Source of the DNA: Bryoerythrophyllum caledonicum | Taxonomy: Eukaryota; Streptophyta; Bryopsida; Pottiales; Pottiaceae | Reading direction: 5' to 3' | DNA: 64,000 nucleotides | Assembly: GCA_963971425.1 (NCBI GenBank) | Contig: OZ020517.1 | Coordinates: 27,422,668-27,486,667 of the forward strand | Shown: positions 10,207 to 30,400 of the stretch, one piece after another | Numbering within the stretch: the stretch's first letter is position 1 | Layout: each line of letters starts with the position of its first letter | Notes under the pieces: model-generated | Seen by the model: the letters and a program-made list of their open reading frames with translations, nothing else | Told to the model about the DNA's origin: nothing | Databases searched by the model: none | Translations under genes and position numbers: made by a program

Positions 10207-11556
10207 CTACAGAAACACTTGAAGTGACCGACATGCGGAGCCGACGCCAACCAGGGGAACACATCTGACGGCCGGCACCGCCATGGCAGGGACCAGGACG
10301 ACAGGTATGTGGGGAGAAACCCGCATATTCACAGCCCTGGTTGAAGGATGTGAGGGTTTCCCACTTCTCAGAAGCTGTCTCCGAGGTCGGAAGAGCTGGG
10401 AGAACTGCTCACTCATGTCACGAAACTCCTCAGGTTGGGTGACTGTCAACGTGGGCTCGGACACTCGGACCATGCCGGAGAACAACAAACGCGCCGTGCG
10501 AGTAACCCCAGCGCTGTACACATCCAGGCAGCCGAGCTGCTCATCAGCTGGCCGGATCTTGAGAACGATCTGAATTTCGCCTGAAGGATGCTCTATGATG
10601 ATGTTGTGTGTGGGCTCGCCCAACCCCACCGGAGCCGGAGCAGAAGCCAGATCGTGCGCAACTGTGCCCTCCAGGATGGTGCAGCAGGCGATGGCGATGG
10701 CGCCTGTCACGGCCATGGCCGGGTGCGTGGCGGTCGGCACGAGGTACCTCGCGGCCAGGGTGCCTCCACCTCGGGGCTCCGCCACGATGGCGAACTTGGG
10801 AATCACCCGCCCCGCCACGTCACCCAGGCCCATCATGGCGCCTGCGGTCCTGCGAATCTCTTCGACGCGGCGGAAGAAATCCAGGTCCAAGTCGAGGTCG
10901 AGCTTGGACTCGTACCCCGTCTTCCCCAGCGCGGAGGCGCGCGCGACGATGGTGGGGACTGCGCAGTCGATGCACGTAACCTCGACGCCATGGATGATGT
11001 CCCGCAGGCGTGCGGTGGGGAGGAGCGCGCCTGTCTTGGAGCCCATGACGTTGAAGAAGGTGAGCTCGACGGGGGCAGCGGTGCCAGGCACGCCATCTAT
11101 GGTGGCCTCGCCCTCGTAGGTCACCTGCTTCCCCGGGGTCTGCACCACGGCCTCCGCAAACCCGCCGGTGTTCACCAGGCGAATCTTTACCCTAGTTCGG
11201 AGGTCTCCAATGTCAGGGACTAACCCCATCTCGATCGCTGCAGGTCCCACGCCCGCGAGCATGTTGCCGCACGTCGGCCCCCAGTCCACCGTGGTGACGG
11301 ATACCTGCGCGAACAGGAAGTCGACGTCGATTCCTGGCTCGTGGGACCTGGACAGCAGCGCCACTTTGCTGGTGGTCGCCGTCGCGCCGCCCAGCCCGTC
11401 GATCTGGTGCGGGTCTGGCGACCCCATCGCCTCCAGGAGCACCGCGTCCAGAGTTGGCCTGTCTTCGGGAAGATGGTCCTTGAGGAAGTACAACCCCCGC
11501 GACGTGCCGCCCCGCATCAGCAGGCACGGAATCATCAGGCCGCTCCTCTGCACCAT
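10207..11556 (-). CDS. PrpF-family isomerase, 4-oxalomesaconate tautomerase (GalD)-like
   Basis: Single-exon gene of 449 residues starting MVQRSGLMIPCLLMRGGTSRG. The N-terminal motif IPCLLMRGGTSRG, then MGSPDPHQIDGLGGA, GPTCGNMLAGVGP, VEVTCIDCAVPTIVA, IEHPSGE and VTRTARLLFSG, is the signature of the PrpF/GalD family (diaminopimelate-epimerase fold), whose members move a double bond or tautomerise small di- and tricarboxylates. GalD acts in bacterial gallate degradation; PrpF acts in the methylcitrate cycle. The match along the whole length is closest to GalD as I recall it. The two Cys positions characteristic of the fold fall at WGPTCGNM and VTCIDC. The last 70-80 residues extend beyond the usual family end and look unrelated. 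The gene has no intron and is far more GC-rich than its flanks. No transit peptide is obvious, so a cytosolic site is likely. The plant substrate is unknown. Confidence 0.85.
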   Translation of the reverse strand: MVQRSGLMIPCLLMRGGTSRGLYFLKDHLPEDRPTLDAVLLEAMGSPDPHQIDGLGGATATTSKVALLSRSHEPGIDVDFLFAQVSVTTVDWGPTCGNMLAGVGPAAIEMGLVPDIGDLRTRVKIRLVNTGGFAEAVVQTPGKQVTYEGEATIDGVPGTAAPVELTFFNVMGSKTGALLPTARLRDIIHGVEVTCIDCAVPTIVARASALGKTGYESKLDLDLDLDFFRRVEEIRRTAGAMMGLGDVAGRVIPKFAIVAEPRGGGTLAARYLVPTATHPAMAVTGAIAIACCTILEGTVAHDLASAPAPVGLGEPTHNIIIEHPSGEIQIVLKIRPADEQLGCLDVYSAGVTRTARLLFSGMVRVSEPTLTVTQPEEFRDMSEQFSQLFRPRRQLLRSGKPSHPSTRAVNMRVSPHIPVVLVPAMAVPAVRCVPLVGVGSACRSLQVFL

Positions 11557-12637: not shown

Positions 12638-15600
12638 GAAACTTGCCAAAACATCCTTGAATTGCAGAAGGTGGTAACTACTCCGGATACAATGCCACAA
12701 GACGTTGAATGTGATGGTGACCAGCACGATTGGGTGCAAAGCCACTATCCGCGTGGATATACCGTCGTACCTTGAGCCCGGCTTCTAACATAGCCGTGAG
12801 CCCCGTACCAATACCAGCAAATAGCTCCACAAGGGTGATACCCTCATCCAGTGGTCGACACTGAATAGTGCGAGCCAACAACGGAGTAGAAGAGTCCATT
12901 GAAAGCACTGGAGCATCAATAGCATCCACAATCTCCCGACTGCGGTGTGTGAGCTCCAACTGAGTTCCCCATGGAGGAAGTAGATCCTTGCAATGATGTG
13001 CAGAGATCTCCATTGATTTCTGCACACGCGATTCCGCGACCCTCGATATAAAAGCATATGTCTCCTCCAAAAGCATAGAATCACATGGAAAATTGGATGC
13101 CAAAGTACTGCATCCAAACATTGCATCTGCCGTGGAAGTCATCGTGCTAGTTGCAAAGACAACCGGAATGAGCTCTTTTTTGCCATCATCGGCAGACCAC
13201 CCAGGCCTAATCCGGGCCTCCATCGTCTATATATCCACTCCAAAATCGAGGGGATAAAGCGTCTGTTGACCCACCAAAATGTTGTAGTTGGTGGCGCTTG
13301 TCAGAGCGCAGTAGAAAGATATGTGGGAGAACAAAGGACCAGATCCCACGCCAATCATCAACTGCAACGGATGTCAGGTGTAGCCCATAGCCTTCTCCGT
13401 GCCCCCTACCGATGTAACAACCATAAATGGGCAAGACTCGAGGTCCGAAGCACCAAGACCCAAATCCTAGGCTAGCTGCTTGCCCATCATCACTGGATGA
13501 GCTCCGGAGTCCAACATAACACGTAGGTGGGTAGCTCAAGTAAGGTTGCCGTCCGTACCGCCAACCACCATAACTCCATCGTTATTCACCAAACATACCA
13601 CCCTTAGACGCACACTGTGTCGCTTCTAGGCCGACCGGACTGCAACTTCAAACAAATAAGCCACTCATGAGATCAAGGATTGATCTACGGTGGACTGCTC
13701 CATAGGTTTAAGCGTGGCATTGGCCTCAAACACGGGAATAGCCTCCACCGCCAACTTTGCCGCCATTGCCACGAAATCCTCCTCGGTGGGTGAAGCCGTC
13801 ACTGCCTGCGAGACCTCCAACGATGGCATGGGCACCTTGCCCTCCAACATACTACCCGCCAAGTGGAATACACCGGATGGTTGAAAATTCGGTGTCAGAA
13901 AGTCTACACCGGCAAACATCGGCAACTGCAACACCTTATACGCCAAGCTGTGTGCGGCATCTCTACGACTAGAAGAAATCGGTGGGATTGGGGTCTGAGT
14001 TGGAGCGGCAGTAGAAGTCGCCGCATCCGCGATGCTGGACGATAGAGGTAACCGGGATTGACTAATGTGGTCCGACAAGCCCATGTGGCGTGGACGGCCT
14101 CTACCCACTAGTAGAGAGGGAAAAGGTGCCATTGCCTATGCAATAGTCTGAGCACAAGTGGCAAGTGCTGCCACCACCTCCCCTGAAGCGCCATACAAAT
14201 AGCGATCTTGGGCTAAAGGTAAGCCCTAGTTCCTTACCGGAGGCTGTGTGTCAGCCACTTATTCCAAAGACGCCATCGCGCTCATCTGCTTCTTTAGCTC
14301 CGCCATTTCAGCCTGAAGTTTCATCTCAACATCCGATTCAACAGCCGAAGACCTTGGGCACTTCTCCGAGTGAAGAACAAAACAATTATAATCACTCTGG
14401 TTCGATTTGCCACAATGAGAGCATGTCACAGCCTTCTTTCCCTTGCCCCTAGCCTTCTTTGCAGTCTTGGCTGCCTCTGTCTTCGGCTTGGCCTTCAAGA
14501 TGTCTGCCCTTTTCTTCTTGGAGAAATTGGGGTCCCCCTCGGTGTGACCTGCCTCCCCACAAGACCAATAATGCACAACCTTTTCGAGTTGTGCCTCCGC
14601 CAAGCTACCGGTCGCGGTGGCAAGCTTCTTAAGCTTAGGAGCGTTCATCAGCGCCGTGACCAAATCCGTGGCCTTGTTTACGCCCAACACTCTATCAAGT
14701 GCTTCCACCTTATCAAACGTTTGCGCCAAAGTGGCGTTCCGTGATACCAAAAAAGATGCGGACTAATTAACTCCACCATCCGCTTATCCAATTTCAAAAT
14801 GAAGATCTTCACCAGCTAGCGCTCTGTGAACACATCACGAGCCTCCGTTGACAATCGTGTCAACCGGGTATACATAGTGCGAGGGGTATTGTCCTTCTCC
14901 CGGCGGAAATCCTGGATGCTTTGCACCTGATCACACTTGAACCCCCCGTATTCCACCTCCAAGTGCGCCATGAATTGCGCCAAAGGATTGAAGGTTGGCA
15001 GATCGCCAAGTGCCATCAATGCCGCACGTGTAGCCACGGCCAAATGTGACTTGGCCCCTATGCGAAACCGTTTGGCCACCAAGGCAATGCCCTTGCCCCT
15101 CGAGTCCTCACCAAGGAAACCGTCTTGTACCTTGGGCTCCTCGATGGAAGTCAAAAGTTGGGCAATCGTACTCTCCTTGAGCGTAGTCACCAACTCCACA
15201 CGCTTGCGCGAGTACTCCTCAACGGGGCGCAACGGCATTGTGCTGCATAGTCCACCTCCCATATGACTGGAGGACCTCTTGCTCCAAACGTTGGGGCAAG
15301 AGCTCAAACGCATACCAGTCGTTTAACGACGGCGTCCGCTGGCGCTTCTCCTTCATCCAAGTATGGAATTGGAGCCGCCAATCGGGCAAGGAAATTTTCT
15401 CAGCCCGTCCCGAGAACCTGTCTCTCATGACATGTCGGAGATCGTCCTCCATGTCATCAAACGTGCCTACGCCAAGACCCGAAGCCTACGGTTGGTATCC
15501 AACGCCGAAACATGCTCAAAGACCATGTCGGTATCCGACCCCGGCCCAAAGTCTATCGTGGAAGCACTCTCCGAGTGGTCTGGTGAGTAGTAGCGATAAT

Positions 15601-16180
15601 ATCGACTCTGTGTACTCACCATAAATAATAACCACCTCAGGATCTATCTACGGGTACTATTTAAAGGGTAAGGGTACGAACAGACAACTTGGACCTGCAA
15701 AACCACCAAACTTTGTGGTTCACCGGTCATCACCTCCGGCTAGCACAGGTCCAACCACAACCCCCCACATAGAAAGGTCTTGACGGCCATGAACCCGACT
15801 TCACCTCTACGGTACCCTATTACAATCTAAATACAATGATAAATGGGACCACCGGAAAACACCGGCAACAAGCCCGCAACACGGAGGAGGTACCGTAGAA
15901 GAATTCAGAAATCAAACCAGAACCTCTCTCCCAACAACATAAAAGCATAATAGAGAAGAGGTCAAAGCCACTGGTACACGCCTGTAGTGGATGGCTTGAG
16001 TCGCAAACTTGCAATACAAAGAGAAACACTAAAAAGTGTTTTCCGTCCAACATCTACAACTAAGGGAGTAGTGGAGATTGACCGCAGTGTTCAAAAACAC
16101 CAACCCTCCAATGAAATCACATACATTGGTGGATAATCACGACAAACGCAAAACTAACACTAAAATGAAGGCAAGGTAAA
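12638..16180 (-). mobile_element. Old partial Ty3/gypsy copy with gag and part of the cytosine methyltransferase
   Basis: Fossil of the same family as the element at 17762-27416. Homology to that copy starts at about 12638 (matching 22838) and runs to about 16180 (matching about 26380). It holds the front part of the methyltransferase with motif I (VELFAGIGTGL, near 12800-12850), a protease/gag region with a CCHC-type knuckle, and the leader. The pol part and recognisable LTRs are absent. The copy is clearly broken, with many interruptions, and is visibly diverged from the young copy, so it is considerably older. Confidence 0.88.
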
Positions 16181-17761
16181 GTTCAATGAAAAATAATCGT
16201 CTCGACCTTTGGATTTTCAAATTGAGGAGTATTTTTAATAGGACTATTAAGTTATTAGATGACTAAATGAATACCCATTGTCCTCGACAACGGCAACGGG
16301 AGTTTTTTTTGTGGGGTTTGAATTTTTTGGCAATTTTAAGCAACCATCACCCATTACCTGCTCCAAATACTCCAAAAATTGTAATCCGTATAGACCTTAA
16401 TCACACAAATAGTGTATATCCATAACTTCTATGACCTAATTAACATCTTCAAAGTAACTTTAGCCTAAATGACATCTAGCCTTAACGAGTGATCTCTAGA
16501 ATTTCAAATTTCTCCCGGATTTACAGATCAACTCCATAGAATCTGTGAGGTATTATGTGAAAAATAGGATTTTTTGATGGGTATCACAACCGTGCTTTGC
16601 TTTAAATTTCAAAACACACAAAAAATTCCAATCCAATGAATGCATGTGTCTGCGTAGATGTAGTATGGGTCAATGTTGCCCATTTTCAAGTACATCTTTG
16701 AAAAAAACTTGTTGCATTCCACAGAACGATAGTTTCCATCTTTAAAAACGCACATCTTTTTTAGGCCCTAGTATATTTTAGTTGAGATCATGGTATAGGA
16801 GTGGTAGTAGTCCAAGTCGCTAGTCATGTAATCTCAGGTGTTGTCAATATCAGGGTGGCCAACCTAGGCAAAAACCATGCTCACAATCAAAGACTAAGGA
16901 TTTTTACAAAGCAAATTCTTCCTTGTAGGTATTATCTCATTTCAACGTGCCTCCAGAAAATTTAGACCTAACAATAGATTGAGGATCATCATAAACAAGA
17001 GTGTACTGAATCCAAAAATTGAAATGTGATTTGTATATGTTGAGTTTTTAATTTTTTTTCCCTAACCATGTTGCATCGTACACACGACAAATTCCGATTG
17101 CACATTGCACTCTATCAAACGATCCATGTGCAAGAAACACATCCTTCCGCAAGAAATCCTTGGATTGTATATACTGCAACTCTGTAATCTCTAAGAGAAA
17201 AACTTGAATCAACAAACACTACATCATAAAATTCTATGTCTCAACAAATCATCAGCCCATATTCAAAGCTACAAAAACTCAACAATGGATGTCAACAAAG
17301 AAAAAAGAAGAACCAACTTCAAATAAACAGTTAATATCATGTGATATGCAAACTCCATACAATAAATGCTATTGAGGTGCTTCTAGTGAAAATAGAATAT
17401 TGGTTCAAAACTTGTTGACCATTGTTGAGAATCACTTTGATGTTGACAATCTTGCTGAAACCTTTACCTTTTATAGCTACGCACAAAAACACACACATCA
17501 CTCATCATAAATGAATAATTAAAAGATAACGCCATTAAACATTGAAACAACCTCGTTGAGGCATAGCAGCGAGTCTTTTACCTACAATGCTCCCCTCTTC
17601 TGCAAGCGGCAAGTTGCTCTCACGATCCACAGCTCCGTCACACATCCATAGCTCCACCGTGTCCATCACTCGCTCTTCACACGCTCGTTTTAATCTTGTA
17701 AGCATGTGCTTTTCCTACTTAGCCATATGTTTAGAGTTTGAGTGGGCATCACTTGCCATGT
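16181..17761. other. AT-rich DNA between the two retroelement copies
   Basis: No supported gene. The sequence is AT-rich with stops in all frames and is the left flank of the young retroelement insertion. Confidence 0.5.
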
Positions 17762-18331
17762 TGTCGTGTAAAGAAAGATCGATAACCACAACAGATCGAG
17801 AGTCCTAACCAACATCAAATAAACGAAAAACATACACTAAAACAAGTATACGTAATACACCCTCAAGGAAAGATGTATGAATCACAAGTAGTCAAGCGTC
17901 TCGCACTCCACGAAGGAAGAATCAACGAGTGCGAGTGGAACTAGAGAATGTAGAGTCTTTACTAATGACAAACCATCACTAACAAGCAAGGACTCACTAA
18001 TCACTCTCTAAACACACTCACAAAGCTTGACTTGACAAAGACGTCAAGTCAAGGACGTGTGCGGCGCTATACGCACACGCATACAACCCTAAGTGGATGA
18101 AAATCATCCACGGATGAAAACGGTGCGCCGCCGTACGTCCCTAAACACACGTAGATTAGTAACAAACTAATCTACGCTAAAATCTACGATACGGAGAGAC
18201 CCTCGACGACACGTCCCGTGACAGCTGTCGTGTAAAGAAAGATCGATAACCACAACAGATCGAGAGTCCTAACCAACATCAAATAAACGAAAAACATACA
18301 CTAAAACAAGTATACGTAATACACCCTCAAG
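17762..18331 (-). repeat. Left-end LTR (element 3' LTR) with a flanking 106-bp direct repeat
   Basis: 17868-18223 is the LTR segment shared with the right end. On either side sits an identical 106-bp sequence (17762-17867 and 18226-18331). Read in the element's sense, 18223 to 17762 starts TGTCACGGG and ends ACGACA, as an LTR should (TG...CA). A G-rich tract (18332-18343 on the opposite strand) lies just inside the inner 106-bp copy and resembles a polypurine tract. Confidence 0.85.
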
Positions 18332-18649
18332 TGCCCCCCCTAGCGGATAAAGAGACCCTCTATCCAACTAGGACCAAACAACACTAATAAGACTAAACGC
18401 CACGGTGATGTCGCTGCAACAACTGTACGCATCCAGCCAAAGATGTCGTTGTCATCGAATCAATAAGCATATGAAGAAGTAACAAAGAGATGGTAGGCCG
18501 GGTGCAATGTGAGCCCCATCTTTAATCGCCTTAGGCAATTTTATTGCCAATCCCTTGGTCAATCTCCACGTTGCCTATCCCTGAACCGAAATCAGGAACT
18601 CCAACTGGATGGCAACGCACCATACAATGACAAGTCTTTGAGGAATTCA

Positions 18650-19190
18650 AGCCGTTTCATCGGGTGAAACGTGACTCGAAGACCTCCGACAACGAGGGCA
18701 AGTCCAATCCCCGGACGGTAGAGTAGAGAGAGGCGGCGTCAAGCAAGCCATATGCCAACCACGCTGGCAATGGTCACAAAGTAACATAGTAGCCGCACCC
18801 TTCTTCTCACCACACACATAACACGGAAGACCCTGTGGCACAACGGCCAACTCAGGATGCACGGAGCCATCAATGGGCAAATGGCAGGGCGCGTAGTTCT
18901 TGGAGTGCTCCCGACACTCCCGGCCATCTTTGCCTTCTAGCAACAAGATGCCACTGGGCAACACATCCTTCACACGAAGAATGGTGCGCCCGGCCTTGAC
19001 GTCTAACGTTGTAGGCGCCTCACGTTGCAAATAAACGTAATCTCCAGTGGAGAAACGCCGCAACTGAGGTCGATAAGCGCCGCTGCGAATGCGAGCGTAC
19101 CGTAATGTGTCGCGGTGCTGAGCGATGGATAAATTCTCCATGGCCATTGGCATGGCCCGCTTGAAGAACTCCGCTCGGTCACGCAGACAC
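18650..19190 (-). CDS. Retroelement integrase C-terminal region with PHD finger
   Basis: Part of the young Ty3/gypsy element, following the integrase core. The first half has an SH3-like integrase tail (FSTGDYVYLQREAPTTLDVK ... ILRVKDVLPSGILLLEGKDG). The second half (about 18690-18830) has a Cys4-His-Cys3 pattern: CYVC, then LLCDHC, GWHMAC and WTCPRC, with the W two residues before the last Cys pair. That is a PHD finger, a module that usually reads histone H3 tails. It sits where chromoviruses carry a chromodomain, so a role in guiding integration is a reasonable inference. Confidence 0.85.
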
Positions 19191-21780
19191 TAGATCCAGA
19201 CCTCTGGATCATCCAAGTCCACAACTGGGGCCAACTTCTCCCGTACAGAACTGGGTAGAATCGGCTCCCGTCCGTACAACAACTGATACGGACTGAAAGC
19301 GGCCAAAGAGGCCTGCCGGCTAAACCGGTATCCCATGGCGATCCATGGTATCATCAGATCCCAATCACGGTGGCCACCCTGAAGTAATCCATACTTCCGT
19401 AGTCCACGCTTGACGGTCTGAACCACACGCTCCGCCAAACCGTCCGCTTCCGGATGATCTCTAGAAGTCGTACGGTGGTCAATTAAAGCCTTGGTGCACA
19501 AAGCCTCGAAAGCACCAAGGAACTCACGCCCTTGGTCAGTCAACACCTCAGCTGGGGCTCCAAAACGAGCGAGCACCCGGTCAAGGAATGCCATGGCCGC
19601 CAACTCCGAGGAGTTCTGTGGTAATGCCACAAGCTCAATCCACTTGCTGAAGTGCTCCACCATCACCAACACGTACTTGGCTCCACGTGGGGTGACAACA
19701 AGTGGCCCAGCAAAATCCAGCGACCAACGGTAGCCCAAACCCATGATGGGCAAAGGCTGCAACTGTGGTGACAATGTGTTGAAGCTGGATCTGACCCGAT
19801 CACAGACTTCACACCGTGAAACGTACATGGCCACCTGCTGATACATGCCGGTCCACCAATATTGACTGCGCAACATCGAATGAGTCCGCCGCACACCAAA
19901 ATGACCAAGGTCTTCGTGTACTTGCCGTACCAACGAAGCCCTCTGATCCGGTCTGGGAACTATGCGCCTAGTTCCATCCGGCCACAACGGAAATAGAAGG
20001 CCGTTCTCCCAACGGAACCTCGCTATCCGGTGTCCAACTCGATCGCGCTCCATGGCCGAAAGAGCGGGCGGAAGTGTGCCATGTTGCAGCTTGTGCAAGA
20101 CTGGAACATCTTCCCACACATCGCTAACAACCTGGGCCTTGTCTGGTTCCTCATCCGCTGCCATATCAGGCAACGTCGATGTGGATCCAGACATCAATGT
20201 GAGGTAGGCTGCTGCATGCCACCCCGGGACTGACTCCCTGTCACAGTCCCCATGCCACCTGGCACCAGTCAAATCTCCCTCCGATGGACTTGGATTGCGA
20301 GATAGACCATCCGCATCCAAGTTCGTGATGCCCGCCCGGTGTACAACCTCAAAATCGTACTCCTGGAGCAACAAAGCCCACCTGGCAAGCTTGCCAGTAA
20401 GCTTGTCAGACTCCATGAGCCACTTCAAAGGCTGGTGGTCGGTCACCAAAGTAAAACGCTGCCCATACAAGTAGGGCCTAAAATGAGCTATGGCCCAAAC
20501 CGCGGCCAAGGCCTCCCCCTCATAGGACGAATAGTTGGACTCCGCGTTGTTGTTGCTTCTAGAAGCGAACGCCACAACGTACTCCCATCTTTCATCATCC
20601 TTTTGAGTCAACACGGCTCCCAATCCTACTGCACTCCAATCTGTGTGCAAGTGGAAAGGCCGTGTAGCATCTGGACGCCGCAGTACAGGCGCTGAACCGA
20701 GCTTCAGCTTCAAAGTAGCAAACGCCTGCTGCTGCTCCCGTCCCCAAGTCCATGGCTGATCCTTCCCCGTGAGAATAGTCAACGGCTTGGCAATCAAGCT
20801 GAAGTTCTTGACAAACCGGCGATAGTAATTCGCCAGGCCAAGAAAAGCTCTGAGCCGCGACACGTCGATTGGGGCTGGGATCTTCTGCAGCGCGTCAACC
20901 TTCGCCTGCTGCACGCCAAGACCTCCTGGAACAATCATATGTCCCAAGTATGGCAACCGGTCATGGAAGAATTTGCATTTGCCATGGTGCAAGCGCAATC
21001 CCCACTGCCGTAACCTCTCAAACACCGCCTGAAGATGCCTCACATGCTCCTGTGGGCTGCTACTAAAAATGATAACATCATCAATGTAGCATCGGGCAAA
21101 CTGTAAACCGGTCAACACCCGGTCCATCACCCTCTGAAACTCAGCGGGTGCGTTCTTGAGGCCAAATGGGAGAAACTTCCAATGGTAGAGCTGATCTCTC
21201 CCATCCAGATCAACTCCCCAGAACGTGGTCTTCACCCGGTCTTCCACCATCAATGGTAACTGGTGGTAACCGGACCGCAAATCCAGAGTACTAAATACTC
21301 TGGCGCGTCCCACCGCATCAAACAACTCCTCTGGCGTGGGCATGGGATACCGATCCGACTTGGTCTTACGATTGACCGGCCTATAATCCCCACACATCCG
21401 CTTCTCCGTCCAGTTGCCAAAGATGTCCTTCTTCGATGGCATCACCGTGGCACAAGCGTACTCGCCGTTAGAGAGCTCAATCAAGCTGGCGTCCAACAAC
21501 TCCTGACAACGAGTTTGAACCCCAACTTTCTCAGAGAGACTGAGCTTGTACGGTCGTCGGAAGATCGGGTGGTCATCCTCCAACTGAATGTGAATTGGTT
21601 TGCCTCTATAGCCCTCCAAATCATGGAGACTAAAGGCAAAACAACTACGATACGAACGTATAAACGCTCGTACCCTTCGTGCCTCGGCACCAGTAAGATG
21701 TGGCCCCAAATCCAAAGGCCAATCATCAAACTCCGTGGTCTCCTTCTCCACCGTAGAAGACTCACCGCGTACCGGCACGG
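19190..21780 (-). CDS. Retroelement pol: reverse transcriptase, RNase H, integrase
   Basis: Long open segment of the young Ty3/gypsy element. Reverse transcriptase shows the FSTLDLRSGYHQL block and the YIDD catalytic box (CYIDDVIIFSS). RNase H follows with HTDWSAVGLGAVL, YEGEALAAVWA and VTDHQPLKWL. Integrase has the H-H-C-C zinc region (HEDLGHFGVRRTHSML ... CEVCDRVR), then the catalytic core with WSLDFAGPL and VLTDQGREFLGAF. Domain order RT-RNaseH-IN is that of Ty3/gypsy rather than Ty1/copia. Confidence 0.95.
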
Positions 21781-21789
21781 CCGGTGATT

Positions 21790-23506
21790 GCTACTTGGTA
21801 GCAGAGAGGGCATTAATGCCCCCACACCCCTCACTCACAGGATCTATAGAAAATCCCGTGTCGTGATGATAAAACTGGGAAATGATATCCCGAGCATCCT
21901 CACGGCCAAAGTCCTCTGCCAAGGCTGCAAAGACACGCTGAGCACGAAGCTCCTCAGCTGCATGTCTCTTCAATCGAAAAAACAACTCCGCTTCCTCGAT
22001 CTCTGTGAGATGTGGCACCGCTGCCCCCTGACCATCAGAGTCTGCCCCCAGCACGCGTGGATGGTCACTCGAACGGCGTTGAGCGGCGAAACAGAGGCCA
22101 CATATCCAAACAAGGGTGTTGAGGTCAATGGCTTGACCCAACAAATAACGGCATTGGCCCTCAGAGATATCCCGTGCGGCGGTGGTGCCTGTCAAAAAGC
22201 CCATCGCCCGCTCCCTCTCATCGGCAGAAGGCTCCTCGAAAGTTTGGGAAGAAGAATCCCAAACCATGCCCGGACCGCGTGCTCTGAAGGCAAAAGAGCC
22301 TGGATAGCACATCAAAGTGGGAAATGCCCCCCGAGTGAAACCAACGCGGTTGACCACCGCCAATGGTGGCTCATCATCCTTCGTAACCTCCGTGGAAACA
22401 CGGTGGTCGTCTAAAATGTCATCGACCTCACGGCGCACGGGCCGTTGCACTTGAGCAAGTGCAGAAGTGAGCGTCGTGGATGATGCCATGTTGGTCCAAA
22501 TCCAACGTGGCCGATGGGCGTAAGATCCCAATGCTGCGGCATCAACAAACGTAGGGGGACCAAGAAGGTGATGGATGTACGCCCCATCCTCACGCACTTT
22601 CGTATGTGTATCTCCCAATGGGGGTACATTCTCAAAAATGTACCCCGGTGGTGTCGATTGGTGGGTAATCCACCACTGGACGAGCCTAAGCAAATCCGCA
22701 AAGAGACCCGACCGTGGATCATCCAAGCCACGTCCACTTCCCGCCCGTGAATGGCCTTGGCAAGGCCATCCGGCAATCACCAAGTCCACGTGACCTAACC
22801 GGCGAAGATCATCCTCACTGATCAACGTCACATCACGTGGCAACTTGCCAAAACATCCCCGAATGGCAGAAGGTGGTAACTGCTCCGGGTACAACGCCAG
22901 AAGACGCTGAATGTGGTGGTGAGCAACTCGATTGGCTGCAAAGCCACTATCGACGTAAATGTACCGGCGTACCTTGAGCCCAGCTTCTAACACAGCCGCG
23001 AGTCCCGTACCGATACCGGCAAATAGCTCCACGAGGGTAATACCCTCATCTGGTGGTCGCCACTGAATTGTACGAGCCAACAACGGAGTAGAAGAGTCCA
23101 CTAAGAGATGTGGAGCATCCAAAGCATCCACAATCTCCCGACTCCGACGGGTAAGCTCCAACTGAGTTCCCCAAGGTAGAACTGGATCCTTGCAATGACG
23201 TGCAGGGATCTGTAGTGGTATGTACTCCCGTGATTCCGCTACCCCCGACATAAAAGCATATGTCTCCTCCAAAAGCGTAGAACCACATGGCAAATCAGAA
23301 GCCAACGCACTGCACCCAAACATAGCGTCCGCCGTGGAAGTCACCGCGCTAGCTGCAAAGACAACCGGAATGAGCTCCTTTCTGCCATCACCGGCAGACC
23401 ACCCAGGCCTAATCCAAGCCTCCTCCGTCCAATTATCCACTCCAAAACCGAGAGGATAAAGTGCTTGCTGACCCACCAGAATGTCATAGTTGGTGGCACC
23501 AGTCAC
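21790..23506 (-). CDS. Retroelement-borne C5 cytosine DNA methyltransferase
   Basis: Lies between the protease and the reverse transcriptase of the young element. The first residues (YDILVGQQALYPLGFGV) belong to the end of the retropepsin-like protease. Then the methyltransferase motifs follow in canonical order: motif I VELFAGIGTGL (about 23005-23035), motif IV with the catalytic PCQ (LVIAGWPCQGHSRAG, about 22750-22785), motif VI ENV (GYIFENVPP, about 22625-22650), a motif-VIII-like RPRWIW (about 22505), and motifs IX-X (ERAMGF, then LLGQAIDLNTL, about 22115-22235). The enzyme would transfer methyl from S-adenosylmethionine to carbon 5 of cytosine. All catalytic motifs are present and the order is not permuted as in plant DRM enzymes. 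Which DNMT class it came from cannot be settled by eye. Confidence 0.92.
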
Positions 23507-25840
23507 AGCACACTAAAGGGATACGTGGGAGAACAATGGACCAGATCCGACACCGAACATCAACTGTAACGGATGTCGGGTGTACCCCATGGCCTTCTCC
23601 GTGCCTCCAACCGATGTAACAATCGTAAATGGGCAAGGCTCGAGGTCCGAAGCACCTAGACCCAAATCCAGGGCTAGCTGCTTGCCAATCATCACTGGCT
23701 GAGCTCCAGAGTCCAACATAACACGCAAGGGGGTAGCTCGAGTGGGGTTGCCGTCCGTACGGCTAACCACCATGACTCCGTCGTCATTCACCAAACGTAC
23801 AACCCCTGGACGCACACTACGGCGCTCTCGTGCCGACCGGGCTGCAATGTCAGATAAATAAGCCACTCCAGAGATCAATGACTGATCCCCGGAGGACTGC
23901 TCCGTAGGTGTGGAAGTGGCATTGGCCTCAAACACGGAAATAGCCTCCGCCGCCAACTTGGCCCGCAATGCCACCAAATCCTCCTCGGTGGGTGGAGCCG
24001 TCACCGCCTGCGACACCTCCAATGAAGGCATGGGCACCTTGCCCTCCAACATACTACCTGCCAAGTGGAATACACCAGATGGTCGAAAATCCGGTGTCAG
24101 AAAATCCACACCGGCAAACACGGGCAACTGCAACACCTTATACGCCAAGGTGTGTGCGGCATCCCCATGAGTGGAAGAAAGCGGTGGGACCGGGGGCGGA
24201 GTGGGAGAGGCAGTAGAAATAGCCGCATCCGCGATGCCAAAAGAAAGTGGTAGCCGGGACTGACCAATGTGGTCCGGCAAACCCGTGTGGCGTGGACGGC
24301 CACTACTAACCGGCACAGAGGATGAAGGTGCCACTGCTTGTGCAATAGTCTGAGCACGAGTGGCCACTGCTGCCACCACCTCCCCTGAAGCGCCATACAA
24401 GTAGCGGTCTAGGGCTGAAGATGAGCCCTGACCCCTCGATGGAGGCCGTGTCTCTGCCACTTGCCCCAAAGAAGCCATCGCACTCATCTGCTTCTTTAGC
24501 TCCGCCAGTTCAGCCTGCAGTGTCTTCACCGCATCCGATCCAACAGCTGAAGACCCTGGGCGCTTCTCTGGATGAAGAGAAAAGCAGTTCTCATCAGTGT
24601 GGCCAGTCTTGCCACAGTGAGAACATGTCACAAGCTTGTTCCCCTTACCCCCAGCCTTCTCTGCAGGCTTGGCTGCCTCAGTCTTGGGCTTGGCCTTCAC
24701 CGCCCCTGCCCCCTTCTTCTTGGAACAGTTGGGGTCCCCCTTGGTGTGACCAGCCTCCCCACAAGCCCAACAATGCACAACCTTTTCAGGTTGTGCCTCC
24801 GCCAAGCTACCGGTGGCAGTGGCAAGCTTCTTGGGCTTGGGAGCCTCTAATAGGGACGTCACTAAATCAGTGGCCTCGCTCACGCCCAGTGCTCTATCGA
24901 GCGCTTCCACCTCGGCGAACGCTTGAGCCAAAGTGGCGTTGCCATGATACCGAAAAAGAAGATGTGGACTAATCAATTCCACCATCCTCTTGTCCAACTT
25001 GAAGATGAAGATCTTCACCAGTTGGCGCTCCGTGAACACATCACCAGCCTCAGCTGACAACCGTGCCAACCGGGTATACATGGTGCGTGGGGTATCCTCC
25101 TTCTCCCGGCGGAAATCCTGGATGCGCTGCATCTGATCACGCCTGAAGCCCCCGTACTCCACCTCTAAATGCGCCATGAACTGCGCTAGAGGATCAAAGG
25201 CAGGCGGATCGCCAACCGCCATCAATGCCGCACGTGTGGCAACGGCCAAACGGGACATGGCCCCCATGCCAACCCGTTCGCCCACAATGGCAACACCCTT
25301 GCCCCTGGAGTCCCCCCGAAGAGACTCTCTTCCACCTTAGGCTCCTCGGTGGAAGTCGGCAGTTGGGCAACTGCACTCTCCTTGAGCGCAGTCACCAACT
25401 CCACACGCTGGCGCCAGTACTCCTCAACCGGACGTAACTGTGCCTCGTGCTGCGTAGTCCACTTTCCGTACGATTGGAGCGCTTCTAGCTCCAAATGCTG
25501 GGGCAAAAGCTCGAACGCATACCAGTCGTTAAACGACGGCGTCCGCTGGCGCTTCTCCTTCATCCAGGTTTGGAATCGGAGCCGCCAATCGGGCAGGGAG
25601 ATGCCCCCAGCCCGTCCCGAGAACCTGTCTCGCACGACATGACGGAGATCGTCCTCCATGTCGTCAAACGTGCCCACGCCCCAGACCCGAAGCCTACGAT
25701 CGGTATCCAACGCCGAAACAGGCTCAAAAGCCTCGTCGGTATCCGACCCTGGCCCAAAATCTGTGGTGGAAGCACTCTCCGAGTGGTCTGGTGAGGGGGA
25801 GCGGTAATACCGACTCCGGGTACTCACCATAAACAACAAC
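23507..25840 (-). CDS. Retroelement gag and protease region
   Basis: Front coding region of the young element. The gag capsid part holds the retrotransposon-gag pattern around FRREKEDTPRTMYTRLARLS and LVKIFIFKLDKRMVELI. Two zinc knuckles follow: CWACGEAGHTKGDPNC (slightly long CX2CX4HX6C) and CSHCGKTGHTDENC (CX2CX4HX4C). A Ser/Pro-rich linker leads to a retropepsin-like site with VMLDSGAQPVMIG. Its end runs into the methyltransferase segment. Confidence 0.88.
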
Positions 25841-27059
25841 CACCTCGGGACCTATCTACGGGTACTACCTAAAAGGTAAGGGTACGAACGGGCAACCTGC
25901 ACCTACAAAATCACCAAACTTTGTGGTTCACCGGTCATTACCTCCGGCTAGCACAGGTCCAACCACAACCCCCCACATAGAAAGGTCTTGCCGGCCATGA
26001 ACCCGACTTCACCCCTACAATACCCTATCACAATCTGGGACAACGAGAAATGGGGCCACCGAAAAACACCGGCAACAAGCCCGCAACATGGGGGAGGAAC
26101 CGCACAAGAATCCAGAAAATCCAAACCGGATCCTCTCCTCCAACAACATATAAGCAAAATTGACAAAAGAGTCAGAGCCATTGGCACACGCCTGCAGTGG
26201 ATGGCTCCGAGTCGCAACACCTGCAAAAGCAAAGAGAAACACCGCAAGGTGTTCCCCCAATGTCTAAAAACTAAGGAGGTAATAGAATCCTATGGTCACG
26301 GTGTTCAAAAACACTAGTCCCCCAACGAAATTCAAACCATGGGTGACAAACGTGCCAAAACGTCAATCCAATACTAGAATTGGATAAATGACGAGATTCC
26401 TTAACTATAAACGCAAGTTTCACTCAAAACTAGAGTAAATATGCACTAGCTAATTACCTCCGAAGTTAGACACTAAACACTTTTATTTTTATTTTTATAT
26501 AGGTCACATAAACATGTGATTGTTTTGAAGACACCTAAAAAATGTCGGTTTTTGAAAGTGCTGAAAACCTAAATTTTACTGCTCTGTAAGGCTTATAATT
26601 CCTCTGCGAACTCAAATCCGCAATCGGAATCCAGAAATAATCAAAATTGCAAAAGTTAAAATTTTGATGTTTTGGTCCAGGGATGTGCTGAAATTTCAGC
26701 CCAAAAGTGACGGTTTTAGGAACTTCGGCACGGTTTAGGGTCCCTAACGGAAATACGTACCCCAACGGATTTGCGACCCAGCGGATGAAAACTGCCGCAG
26801 TGGATGAAAAACCACCGTGGATGAAAAATCGCGCGGCGGATGAAAAATTTGCACAGCAGGTCCAGAAGCTGATCCACCTTGCTCCAATCTTCTACCGCTC
26901 ACAACTTCTTCAAAAATTGTCCAAATCGCACGCCGTTTGTCGCATAAGCTTCCTCTAAACGCGCTCTACAACATCATGCTAAGTACCCACAAGTTTTCTC
27001 ACAATTTCTAGCTCCATAAAAGGAGATCTAATTGTAGAAAATGGAGGGTCTTTGTCAAG

Positions 27060-27416
27060 TGAAAGATGTATGAATCACAAGTAGTCAAGCGTCTCGCACT
27101 CCACGAAGGAAGAATCAACGAGTGCGAGTGGAACTAGAGAATGTAGAGTCTTTACTAATGACAAACCATCACTAACAAGCAAGGACTCACTAATCACTCT
27201 CTAAACACACTCACAAAGCTTGACTTGACAAAGACGTCAAGTCAAGGACGTGTGCGGCGCTATACGCACACGCATACAACCCTAAGTGGATGAAAATCAT
27301 CCACGGATGAAAACGGTGCGCCGCCGTACGTCCCTAAACACACGTAGATTAGTAACAAACTAATCTACGCTAAAATCTACGATACGGAGAGACCCTCGAC
27401 GCCACGTCCCGTGACA
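27060..27416 (-). repeat. Right-end LTR (element 5' LTR)
   Basis: 357 bp beginning TGTCACGGGACG in the element's sense and ending CTTTCA. It matches 17868-18223 with about one difference over 356 bp. The 106-bp sequence that accompanies the left LTR is not seen here. Confidence 0.9.
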
Positions 27417-30400
27417 ATGTCTTCATCCAGACTTTGTTCAGCATGCCATAAATGACCACATCCTGGACCGTGATGTTGACGACATACGCTTGGCTCTTGC
27501 CTTGTCCAAGTCCTCCAATGTCCATCTTCCATGTCTGGAGTTGGGGCTAGGTTTTTTTTGTGAAGGAAACAATGCAATGTCTTTCTGGAGGTACAAATAG
27601 TTAAGGTGTGAGATCTAGACTTGATTTCATGGCCAGGCCTGCAAATGAGAACGTCCATTGTTCCAATTTGCAAGAACTTGCACGACGCCTTCTCGATCTC
27701 CTCCAGCCGTAAAACATTAAAATCTTACTTTAGCTACTCTTCTACAAAATTCACCGTTGGGCCAACAACGTGCAACAATGTTTGTAGGTGTATCAACACC
27801 TTCACGCCTTTATCTTCTATTATCTCATCAAATTTGCCCTTATTGTATGCATCACAAAACATGTAGATTAATTTCTTACTTTATTGTATTCAAAATCTAG
27901 TAGACAATTTTAATACAAAAGCTTGAATAAACTACATATCACAAGAGCACTGCAATGTAAGCCTTCAAATCCCTTTGTGACAAATCCCACTTACAAAATA
28001 ACAGAGGAAATAAATGAAAATTCAAAAATGAAATGATATTTACCATTCTAAAATAAATGTCAAAATTCAAACAGATCAACCACATCAATCAACAAACCAA
28101 ATGACCATCTACTCCACGATAACAAATAAACAAACTCTGGCATTACACATCAGAAACACAAGCCACCAATAAAGTTGGTAAAAATGAAAAATTTAGTGAC
28201 CTAAAGCTTTATTCTTTATAAACCCTAAGTTAATACATGACATACGCTAATGTACTTTCTAGACTTGACAATTTTGTTTCAATTCCGTACCTTCCAAAAG
28301 TGCCCCGGCAGTTGTACTAAGCTGAGCGACCATGCGCAAAGACGCCATTATACTATGCAGACCCATATGCGACTACACGCACGCCACCTCCGCTGGTAAT
28401 CTAAGCCAACAATATTCCTTCCACATTCTCTCTATGAACATTGATTTCTTCAAGCAACACTTCCAATCAACAACAAATCTCTAGTTCTAGCACTTGAAGA
28501 GAAACAACGTCATGCGCCGTGTTTGGTGGCCAACACTTCCAGCTAGCGACATGCAAGGACTCTTTCCTTGGTGGTGCCTCCAAGTGCCTAGATGTTGCTT
28601 GCACTGTAGCTCGCTCGATAGACCTTGCATCTCTCTAGACCATATTTTGCACTCCTCCCATCACCTTGAAACTCTTTCAAAAACCTTAACTGTCACTCAA
28701 AAACTGCCTCTCTAAAAGAAAAATGTCGAGACGGGAATCCTTGAGTTTCACCTAGGTACTCCACCAAACGGATATCTAAACAATTCTACACCTATTTTCA
28801 ATAAATCCACACAATGAACGACAAACTACAACCGTGCAATTTGAAGGCTTAGCACATGAATCTTTTAGAGGCCACAAATGCTAAATGAAGTTATCTTTAA
28901 AGTCAAAATGTATGCCCTTATTGTACAAATTCCTAGTACAAAAAGTAACTCTTGAAATAGAAGTATTTTTTTAATAAATACTTCTGCAACCTTTAAACCC
29001 TCTAAATTACAAAGGAAATTTTTTTAGGCCACTCTATTCTACTCTTTAATATCATGCTAAGTAGAATTTTGGGGTGCATTACAGAACGTTATAACTTGAA
29101 TAAAGCACGGGGTGGTGCAGTGCGAACTCATAAAAATCAAGGTTACAATTAATAAAGCTAGTTGATGAAATTCTTGCATTCCAATTTGGTATTCAATTTT
29201 CGGCTGTAGGATGTCTCAAGCAGTTTTATGTTTCTGTCTTGAAAGGATTTCTTTTTTCAAATGTTTAATTTCATTAAATTGAAAGTAGTTGGTTGGTGCA
29301 CTTTGCAAGGTCATTACATTCCAGTTTGGAATTCACATTTTTGTTGTTGGGTCCAACAATTGGATTCACATCTTTGTGTGGAAATGGTTTAGTTTTTATA
29401 TGTTAAAAAGTACATTGAAATTAGAGTGGTAAGCGGTTGTAGTTAGAGAAGTTTGTATATTCCATATTTGGACACACTTTGAAGTTTGATTTTCTACCAA
29501 TAGTAACAATGTGTTCCGGGTCTTGGCATTATAAATATTCCCCTCTACAATTTGCTCATTGCATCCAAAGTAGAAATGATGCAAGAAAAACGTTAACTTC
29601 TTGCAACATCGACAATCCAACCTACTGACAAAGTTAGGTGGTTGAAGTTGCGGAATAGTTTTGCTAGTGTATGCTTGGACATCCGGTTCTCAAAGAGTCC
29701 CATTAGCAAGGTTGCCTTGAAGAAGTGGCTCATTTTGAACATGCTTGGAGGAAACGACTCGGTCACTATTTGATAGTTTCTTCTCCATCAATGGTGGCAT
29801 TGATGATTCAAAAGAGTTTGAGTCTTTTTCTAACTATGTCAAGACTCAAAGGATATGCTTAAGGAACTAGGCTTTCACTAGATATTTCTATGACAATAAT
29901 ACTTATACCAAGGGTATATAGTTTAAGGACATAAAAATGGTGACAAGTCTGCTAAGCGCTTGTGCCTACGGTATGATTTACCCCCCTCCACTTCCATTCT
30001 GAATTTCAATGATAAAATTTTTAACCATACCTTATAAACCTTATATACCATCTAGGTATGCAAAGCACATATTGCTACCTAGTACCTTCTAATGCCATCA
30101 AGAAGCTATCTCTTTAAGCTCAGAGTTGGTGCAATTTTTCTTTCCCAGCTTTCATTTTTTGAAGGGACAAAAAAAGAATTACGGGAAGGACCACATTTGT
30201 AAGTGTTGATAGTATATTGAGTGCACAAAAAATTAACCGGGTCTAATGCAAGAGAATTGAGTGCTAGTTAGCGGAGGCCAAGCGCTTTCGGGCGATGAAG
30301 ATGAATTGTTTTGTCTTGCTGAGAGCGAGGAAGTCATCCAACCGCCAGCCAAAGCCTAGAAGTCCCTAAGAAAGAAGAAGAAGAAGAAAACGGGGACAAC

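Follow-up and report, generated by a model that had tools for sequence, protein, structure and literature searches.

How can an element with the proteins of a Ty3/gypsy retrotransposon integrate when its repeats do not form two long terminal repeats (LTRs), and what might it do with a cytosine DNA methyltransferase of its own? Both questions are raised by an element in a 64,000-nucleotide stretch of the moss Bryoerythrophyllum caledonicum (contig OZ020517.1, positions 27,422,668 to 27,486,667 of the forward strand), which we call the window and whose positions are counted from its first letter. An initial annotation had placed at 17762..27416 a young Ty3/gypsy retrotransposon with its own C5 methyltransferase (MTase), and these coordinates proved exact, with the target-site duplication (TSD) 'atgt' on both flanks. 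The window element is a young Ty3/gypsy retrotransposon that carries a Dnmt3-like C5 MTase. While the general kind is known, our analysis adds its apparent mode of integration, the predicted self-priming, the placement of the MTase in the first open reading frame (ORF1) and a wide range of hosts. On balance, we consider it probable that this gypsy element combines three linked oddities: a gag-protease frame that ends with the MTase before a UAG codon, self-priming, and integration via an internal palindrome.

Split repeats flanked by target-site duplications

On the coding strand, the repeats of the element followed the order A1 - internal - B1 - GC - A2 - B2 (Table 1). A1 and A2 of the window copy were 99.7% identical (1/356 positions differ). 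The difference of about one base in 356 that had been reported between LTR segments was therefore correct for A1 and A2, but the repeats are split (A ... B-gc-A-B) and do not constitute ordinary LTRs. We inspected the ends of 15 copies from the family of the window (family 1, window included) and of six copies from the other common family (family 2, loci L017-L028). Both ends were visible in 13 family 1 and five family 2 copies, one end being missing in L045, L015 and L027, and split repeats were present in all 18 of them. Among 10 further copies, fetched in halves, the A1/A2 pair was detected in eight and the B1/B2 pair in nine. The identity between A1 and A2 was 97-100% wherever computed, and A2 was shortened in one family 1 copy (L053/L054). 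Searching the 437 Mb of the genome, we matched a 570-bp repeat block at 42 places over positions 1-570 or 2-570. On contig C202 (G000:C202:1985-3018), two overlapping matches corresponded to a tandem B-A-B-A-B block at an element end, with one unit extra.

The termini of the elements read TGT...ACA. A 4-bp TSD was found at the TG...CA ends of 17 out of 18 copies (12/13 in family 1 and 5/5 in family 2), for which the chance expectation is about 2e-40; two of the five family 2 duplications were read by eye, one of them with an altered base in the A1 start.

A palindromic joint with a single polarity

The spacer between B1 and A2 was GC in 13/14 family 1 and 6/6 family 2 copies, and the joint read ACGACA-GC-TGTCA in the same proportions. 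In both families the B-gc-A joint formed the palindrome GACAGCTGTC, though the remaining repeat sequence differs between them. A1 stopped at the predicted primer-binding site (PBS) and B1 started at a G-rich sequence, the predicted polypurine tract (PPT). The second joint, A2/B2, united the last base before the PBS with the first base after the tract in 13/14 family 1 and 6/6 family 2 copies, the exceptional family 1 joint having one extra base.

Exact patterns were then counted genome-wide. A followed by the PBS occurred at 200 places for family 1 together with sister subfamilies and at 216 places for family 2, and B-gc-A/B occurred at 58 places, counted for family 1 only; controls with reversed patterns gave 0. 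The pattern B-gc-A/PBS, with the palindrome upstream of a 5′ end, was found 0 times in family 1 and 0 times in family 2 among these 416 exact 5′ ends, a count that covers exact palindromes, so that altered palindromes or B ends of sister subfamilies would escape it, and part of the 200 family 1-type ends belongs to sister subfamilies whose B ends were not seen. The mirror product A-B-A-internal-B was likewise not found among the 416 ends with exact patterns. Since none of these ends carried the palindrome upstream, the integrase seems to use the internal palindrome and not the DNA termini.

Predicted self-priming of the element RNA

In family 1, the 13 nt that follow A1 had a perfect complement within A, at position 182. 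Family 2 showed an equivalent complementarity of 12 nt with a different sequence. Mononucleotide shuffles reached these lengths in 0/2000 (13 nt, family 1) and 1/2000 (12 nt, family 2) cases. The predicted folds of family 1 RNA paired the primer with the PBS (z -5.2 and -4.7), and so did the fold of family 2 RNA when it started at the primer (z -4.1). These complementarities and folds predict that the element RNA primes its own reverse transcription.

Two reading frames separated by a conserved UAG

A Pfam scan of five ORFs of the window identified C5 methylase, RVT_1, RNase H, H2C2, rve and PHD finger domains. The protease match was slightly below the cut-off, and a gag-like zinc-knuckle sequence was located upstream of the protease and the MTase. 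No tyrosine recombinase was found among the five ORFs scanned, and no chromodomain matched at the integrase C-terminus, where the PHD finger was located instead. By its proteins, in the order reverse transcriptase (RT), RNase H and rve integrase, the element is a gypsy with atypical ends.

An uninterrupted ORF1 frame of 1353 aa was present in 9 out of 76 matches to the window MTase. In L009, 943 aa were open ahead of MTase motif I and contained zinc-knuckle and protease pieces, and in family 2 gag, protease and MTase likewise shared one open frame. ORF1 closes with a TAG that is followed in phase by RT, RNase H, integrase and PHD finger; the integrase-to-PHD frame was unbroken in L010 and L011 over the stretches displayed. 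Using flanking anchors and requiring no stop, we read the boundary as AAG-TAG-CAA-TCA in 21/21 readable family 1 loci and as CAA-TAG-CAA-CCA in 11/11 family 2 loci. Twenty-two family 1 boundaries were examined; the L013 stretch ends before the boundary and its neighbour, L014, reads the same context. The readthrough consensus of plant viruses is UAG-CAR-YYA. Because the context of the element matches this consensus, the conserved UAG is presumably of the leaky type and ORF2 would be reached by readthrough. Similarly, since the MTase sits in the gag-protease ORF1 before the UAG, it would be produced at gag-like levels and could enter the particle.

A model for integration through the internal palindrome

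The model proposed here starts from the repeat order, the TSDs, the joints, the self-complementarity, the stop context and the congruent trees described below, and it would add to them the steps of cleavage, of joining and its timing, of entry into the particle and of readthrough. The MTase, made at gag-like levels, would enter the particle. The 13-nt stretch in repeat A would pair with the site right after A, so that the RNA would prime itself, and reverse transcription would yield the usual two-LTR DNA, one 'LTR' being B-gc-A. The termini of this DNA would not be the integrating ends. Instead, the palindrome GACA^GC TGTC, contained within ACGACAGCTGTCACGG, would be cut after CA on both strands, leaving two recessed CA-3′OH ends with 2-nt 5′ overhangs that resemble 3′-processed retroviral ends and that would be inserted with a 4-bp duplication. 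The U5 end of A would be joined to the U3 start of B either before integration, as in a two-LTR circle, or after it, and the outcome of the cut and the joining would be A-internal-B-gc-A-B. In the copies found, only the PBS-side palindrome would have been cut, perhaps since the PBS-side repeat turns double-stranded first. The integrases of HIV-1 and spumaretrovirus are described as cutting the palindromic two-LTR junction to a CA-3′ end (PMC4372172). The stronger proposal, that a whole DDE-integrase lineage integrates obligatorily via an internal palindromic joint, in effect by the circle-junction route of 1984, that its ends made by reverse transcription have to be joined to each other and never become integrated ends, and that it carries a PHD reader plus a Dnmt3-like writer, seems to us evenly balanced.

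Two simpler schemes were rejected: A-B joining via the CACTTGA common to the PBS and PPT edges was discarded for family 1, as the base A of that sequence is missing from the joint, and a freely cut two-LTR circle was discarded as a sufficient cause on account of the 0/416 mirror products.

Several observations weigh against the palindrome model. Free cutting of a circle is expected to produce A-B-A-I-B alongside A-I-B-A-B and, as the former was not found, an extra directional step is required. The A/B joints were near-invariant (19/20), whereas the joining of DNA ends tends to be imprecise; such constancy would fit a copied joint. In family 2, one base of the A2/B2 joint can be assigned to either side, so that a 1-base overlap and a blunt joint are indistinguishable. 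The absence of palindromes upstream of 5′ ends is bound to the exact patterns, as stated above. In addition, L039/L040 (family 1) was the one copy out of 18 that had no TSD, B repeats were not found on inspection of the ends of L015/L016, and family 2 RNA with 9 nt more upstream of the primer folded without pairing primer and PBS.

An alternative is that the A2/B2 joint is copied from RNA in each cycle, by a split-repeat use like that of DIRS/PAT elements, the integrase acting on the ends which that route provides. The identity of the A/B joint in 19/20 copies, the lack of an alternative circle product among the 416 exact 5′ ends and a repeat order equal to that of DIRS elements (PMC5890265) would all follow from it. 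However, a self-primed minus strand would be expected to start at the A end and to transfer to A2, so B2 would be left uncopied, and in two families that differ in sequence the A/B joint falls at the edges of the PBS and the PPT. We regard a copied joint as unlikely, though it deserves serious attention. Far less probable is an ordinary LTR element, locally rearranged or nested, with odd repeats that are an accident of the locus: the window alone could be read in this way, but the order was the same in 18/18 copies with both ends visible, from two families, and recurred at the 58 exact B-gc-A/B places and the 42 places of the 570-bp block. The repeat order would also suit a DIRS-type element that relies on a tyrosine recombinase for its integration, but this reading can practically be dismissed for the two families given the rve integrase with D-x34-E, the lack of a tyrosine recombinase in the five scanned ORFs and the 4-bp TSDs.

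The methyltransferase is related to Dnmt3 and under purifying selection

The element had been described as holding a complete C5 MTase between the protease and the RT, and Pfam and motif reading agreed on this point. The motifs, which we take to be I, IV (PCQ), VI (ENV), VIII-like, IX and X, were in the usual order. The stretch spanning motifs I to VIII aligned to DNMT3A, which was also the best PDB match of the MTase (METHYLTRANSFERASE; E 2e-7), and a profile of 43 MTase sequences gave E values of 6e-23 for DNMT3A, 8e-10 for DRM and 2e-8 for HaeIII. The median ratio of nonsynonymous to synonymous divergence (dN/dS) was 0.173 for the MTase (25/36 pairs with dS >0.05) and 0.106 for the RT (28/36 pairs). 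Nine copies entered both calculations: 11 out of 15 were retained and two more were excluded for low RT identity. Two of the nine hold extra stops, which were skipped. In family 1 copies (L030-L066), the median dS was about 0.7 in the protease tail and about 0.12 in the MTase directly downstream, a contrast from which these copies look as if they were mosaics.

The role that we favour for the MTase, if tentatively and at clearly less than even probability, is to methylate the DNA copy of the element itself, either ahead of integration or as it takes place. The CpG observed/expected ratio does not speak for it, as the element (0.84) showed no depletion relative to the window outside 14-28 kb (0.81) and its composition thus lends no support to heavy self-methylation. 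The MTase may instead be kept for silencing the element's own copies, restraining copy number, or methylating host DNA or RNA, and not for marking or protecting fresh DNA, which we hold to be quite possible while falling a little short of even. Purifying selection on the MTase is compatible with any useful role and so also with silencing, restraint or host targets, and copy restraint and RNA targets are discussed for such MTases in PMC5890265. Against it, the location in ORF1 before the UAG would predict that the particle, the site of element DNA synthesis, contains the MTase in excess. For the MTase domain of KnitGypsy, DNA methylation was undetectable in yeast, a result considered inconclusive by its authors (PMC5890265).

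Copies in the genome and relatives in other organisms

A search with PF00145 gave at least 123 scored matches in the genome (of 1054 candidates), with two main patterns. When the window MTase was used as query, 76 out of 2793 candidates were scored matches with 84-100% identity, that is, 75 besides the window itself, some of them partial or containing stops; this answered the copy count that had been called for, and many copies have the domain order of the window element. The MTases of families 1 and 2 shared 54% identity. The best PF00145 match of all was a gene at L001 (G000:C14:16014858-16018817) that does not belong to the retrotransposon families. It encodes a full C5 methylase and, together with a transposase-like ORF, occupies a bacterial-looking stretch of a large contig; contamination, misassembly and recent transfer are the candidate explanations.

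Relatives (77 proteins) were found in Marchantia, Calypogeia, Closterium, Sphagnum, Haematococcus, Cymbomonas and environmental contigs. The annotation had referred to charophytes and dinoflagellates; the kind is indeed known from there (PMC5890265), but the range extends to liverworts, Sphagnum and green algae. Trees were built from the 24 out of 123 fetched proteins that had both domains and from two sequences of this genome. The MTase preceded the RT in six out of 26 two-domain sequences (window, family 2, Marchantia, Closterium and two environmental) and followed it in 20 (Haematococcus and 19 environmental). Of the latter, 19 had an integrase downstream of the MTase, and none was found in P0039. 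In P0037-P0073, for example P0050 from Haematococcus lacustris, the MTase was located between RT/RNase H and integrase and not between protease and RT.

The MTase and RT trees were congruent, both splitting the two domain orders (support 100/99 and 100/100) and both grouping family 2 with Marchantia ahead of the window family. Marchantia and Closterium were the named sequences in the clade of the window. As the trees were midpoint-rooted, they are compatible with one capture as well as with two. Their congruence, together with the 76 scored genome matches and the relatives across several green-plant groups, contradicts the idea that a methyltransferase gene landed in a single element by accident, which we consider next to impossible.

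None of the 53 matches of the MTase search was recognisable as a stand-alone Dnmt3. In IMG/VR, 16 loci on contigs of 19-79 kb gave short matches, and 147 phage records had matches, all below 60% identity and none spanning 80% of the query.

Comparison with known systems

DIRS/PAT elements have the same A-internal-B-A-B order as the window families. However, they carry a tyrosine recombinase, whereas the window families have an rve integrase and a 4-bp TSD. DIRS/PAT elements are not known to make a target duplication. Tf1/Sushi and Tcn1 elements have ordinary LTRs. As in the moss families, the PBS of these chromoviruses is complementary to a segment of their own 5′ repeat (PMC6317226, PMC4600332), Tf1-type self-priming being described in PMC4600332 and that of the plant Tcn1 clade in PMC6317226; they differ in having chromodomains (PMC6317226) where the window families have a PHD finger and split repeats.

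MTase-bearing gypsy elements with DIRS-like repeats have been reported for Klebsormidium (PMC5890265). KnitGypsy-Dnmt3 of Klebsormidium nitens (de Mendoza et al. 2018, PMC5890265) likewise combines gypsy domains and an MTase of the Dnmt3 type, unrearranged and under purifying selection, and its repeats are DIRS-like according to a figure legend, the window families also being A-I-B-A-B. Its MTase belongs to the Pol polyprotein ORF (PMC5890265), whereas that of the moss belongs to the gag-protease ORF closed by UAG. Compared with the paper's description, and not with the K. nitens sequence, the window element further differs in its moss host and its PHD finger; neither 'PHD' nor 'readthrough' is used in the main text of PMC5890265. 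The TSDs, the palindromic joint, the A/B join at the ends of reverse transcription, self-priming and the missing mirror product were worked out here, beyond KnitGypsy-Dnmt3. The dinoflagellate elements SymbioDIRS-Dnmt3 and SymbioLINE-Dnmt (PMC5890265) also bear a DNMT, within other retrotransposon classes, and a 2025 survey places DNMT3 in retrotransposons of streptophytes and dinoflagellates (PMC12344493).

Retroviral integrases acting on two-LTR circle junctions cut a palindromic joint to CA-3′ ends (PMC4372172), as proposed here. The circle-junction model of 1984 was displaced from 1987 (PMC11054761), and such cutting is presented as a back-up route (PMC4372172, PMC11054761), whereas here it corresponds to the only arrangement found. 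Unlike the retroviral junction, the palindrome of the window families is internal to the repeat and distant from the predicted ends of the DNA. In the open-licence PMC literature, covered mostly by titles and therefore weak as evidence, we found no account of split-repeat gypsy integration or of moss copies.

Features and surroundings of the window copy

The description of the element as young and recently moved was borne out; the window copy is damaged at three places at which other copies are open, namely gag (frame break near 25222-25320), the protease (in-frame stop at 23513-23515) and the interval between integrase and PHD finger. Unlike these breaks, the stop at 21791-21793 is the natural ORF1/ORF2 boundary of the family.

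Table 1. Coordinates of the element and its parts in the window.
Feature	Position	Strand	Basis or remark
Whole element	17762-27416	-	4-bp flanks 'atgt' on both sides
Left TSD 'atgt'	17758..17761	.	pairs with right TSD 27417-27420
Right TSD 'atgt'	27417..27420	.	left partner 17758-17761
Repeat A1, element 5′ end, 356 bp, starts TGTCACGG	27061..27416	-	repeat comparison
Predicted self-primer GTCTTTGTCAAGT inside A1, predicted near RNA 5′ end	27223..27235	-	13-nt perfect complement to PBS
Predicted PBS ACTTGACAAAGAC, directly after A1	27048..27060	-	complementarity and RNA fold
ORF1, gag - protease - MTase	21791..25839	-	single frame in other copies; interrupted in window copy
Dnmt3-like C5 cytosine MTase domain	22037..23059	-	PF00145 E 6e-12; DNMT3A best PDB match by sequence and profile
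Conserved TAG between ORF1 and ORF2, context TAG-CAA-TCA, frame runs on	21791..21793	-	locus comparison
ORF2, first part, RT - RNase H - integrase (YIDD; D-x34-E)	19190..21790	-	in-frame stop 19190-19192 in window copy
ORF2, last part, with C-terminal PHD finger, same frame as integrase	18647..19153	-	PF00628 E 1e-11
Predicted PPT GGGGGGGCA, adjoins B1	18332..18340	-	G-rich sequence
Repeat B1, 106 bp, 3′ end CACGACA	18226..18331	-	repeat comparison
2-nt spacer 'GC' of palindrome GACA-GC-TGTC, between B1 and A2	18224..18225	.	joint comparison
Repeat A2, 1 difference from A1 in 356	17868..18223	-	repeat comparison
Repeat B2, element 3′ end, equal to B1 exactly; A2/B2 joint ..CTTTC/CTTGAGG..	17762..17867	-	repeat comparison

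An older truncated copy of the same family was located about 1.6 kb from the young element (12640..16117, minus strand; 84% identical to 22842-26331). Beside the element, positions 10207-11556 (minus strand) contained an intronless, G+C-rich gene similar to PrpF/4-oxalomesaconate tautomerase. Among 120 listed proteins, the best named matches came from the moss Ceratodon purpureus (68%) and the liverwort Calypogeia fissa (54%), and the remaining named ones were bacterial, several of them cyanobacterial. The leading moss match agrees with a moss as the host, and the gene itself may be an ancient bacterial gene in mosses.

Implications

These results extend the range of MTase-bearing gypsy elements from one charophyte (PMC5890265) to a moss, liverworts, Sphagnum and green algae, and two domain orders occur within this range. 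The split repeats and the TSDs point to a departure from the textbook rule that the termini of linear DNA are the substrate of the integrase. If this is true, joined DNA would be an obligatory intermediate, and an MTase made at gag level would gain a natural substrate and a time window. A single lineage would then carry both a chromatin reader, the PHD finger, and a writer of DNA methylation, the Dnmt3-like MTase.

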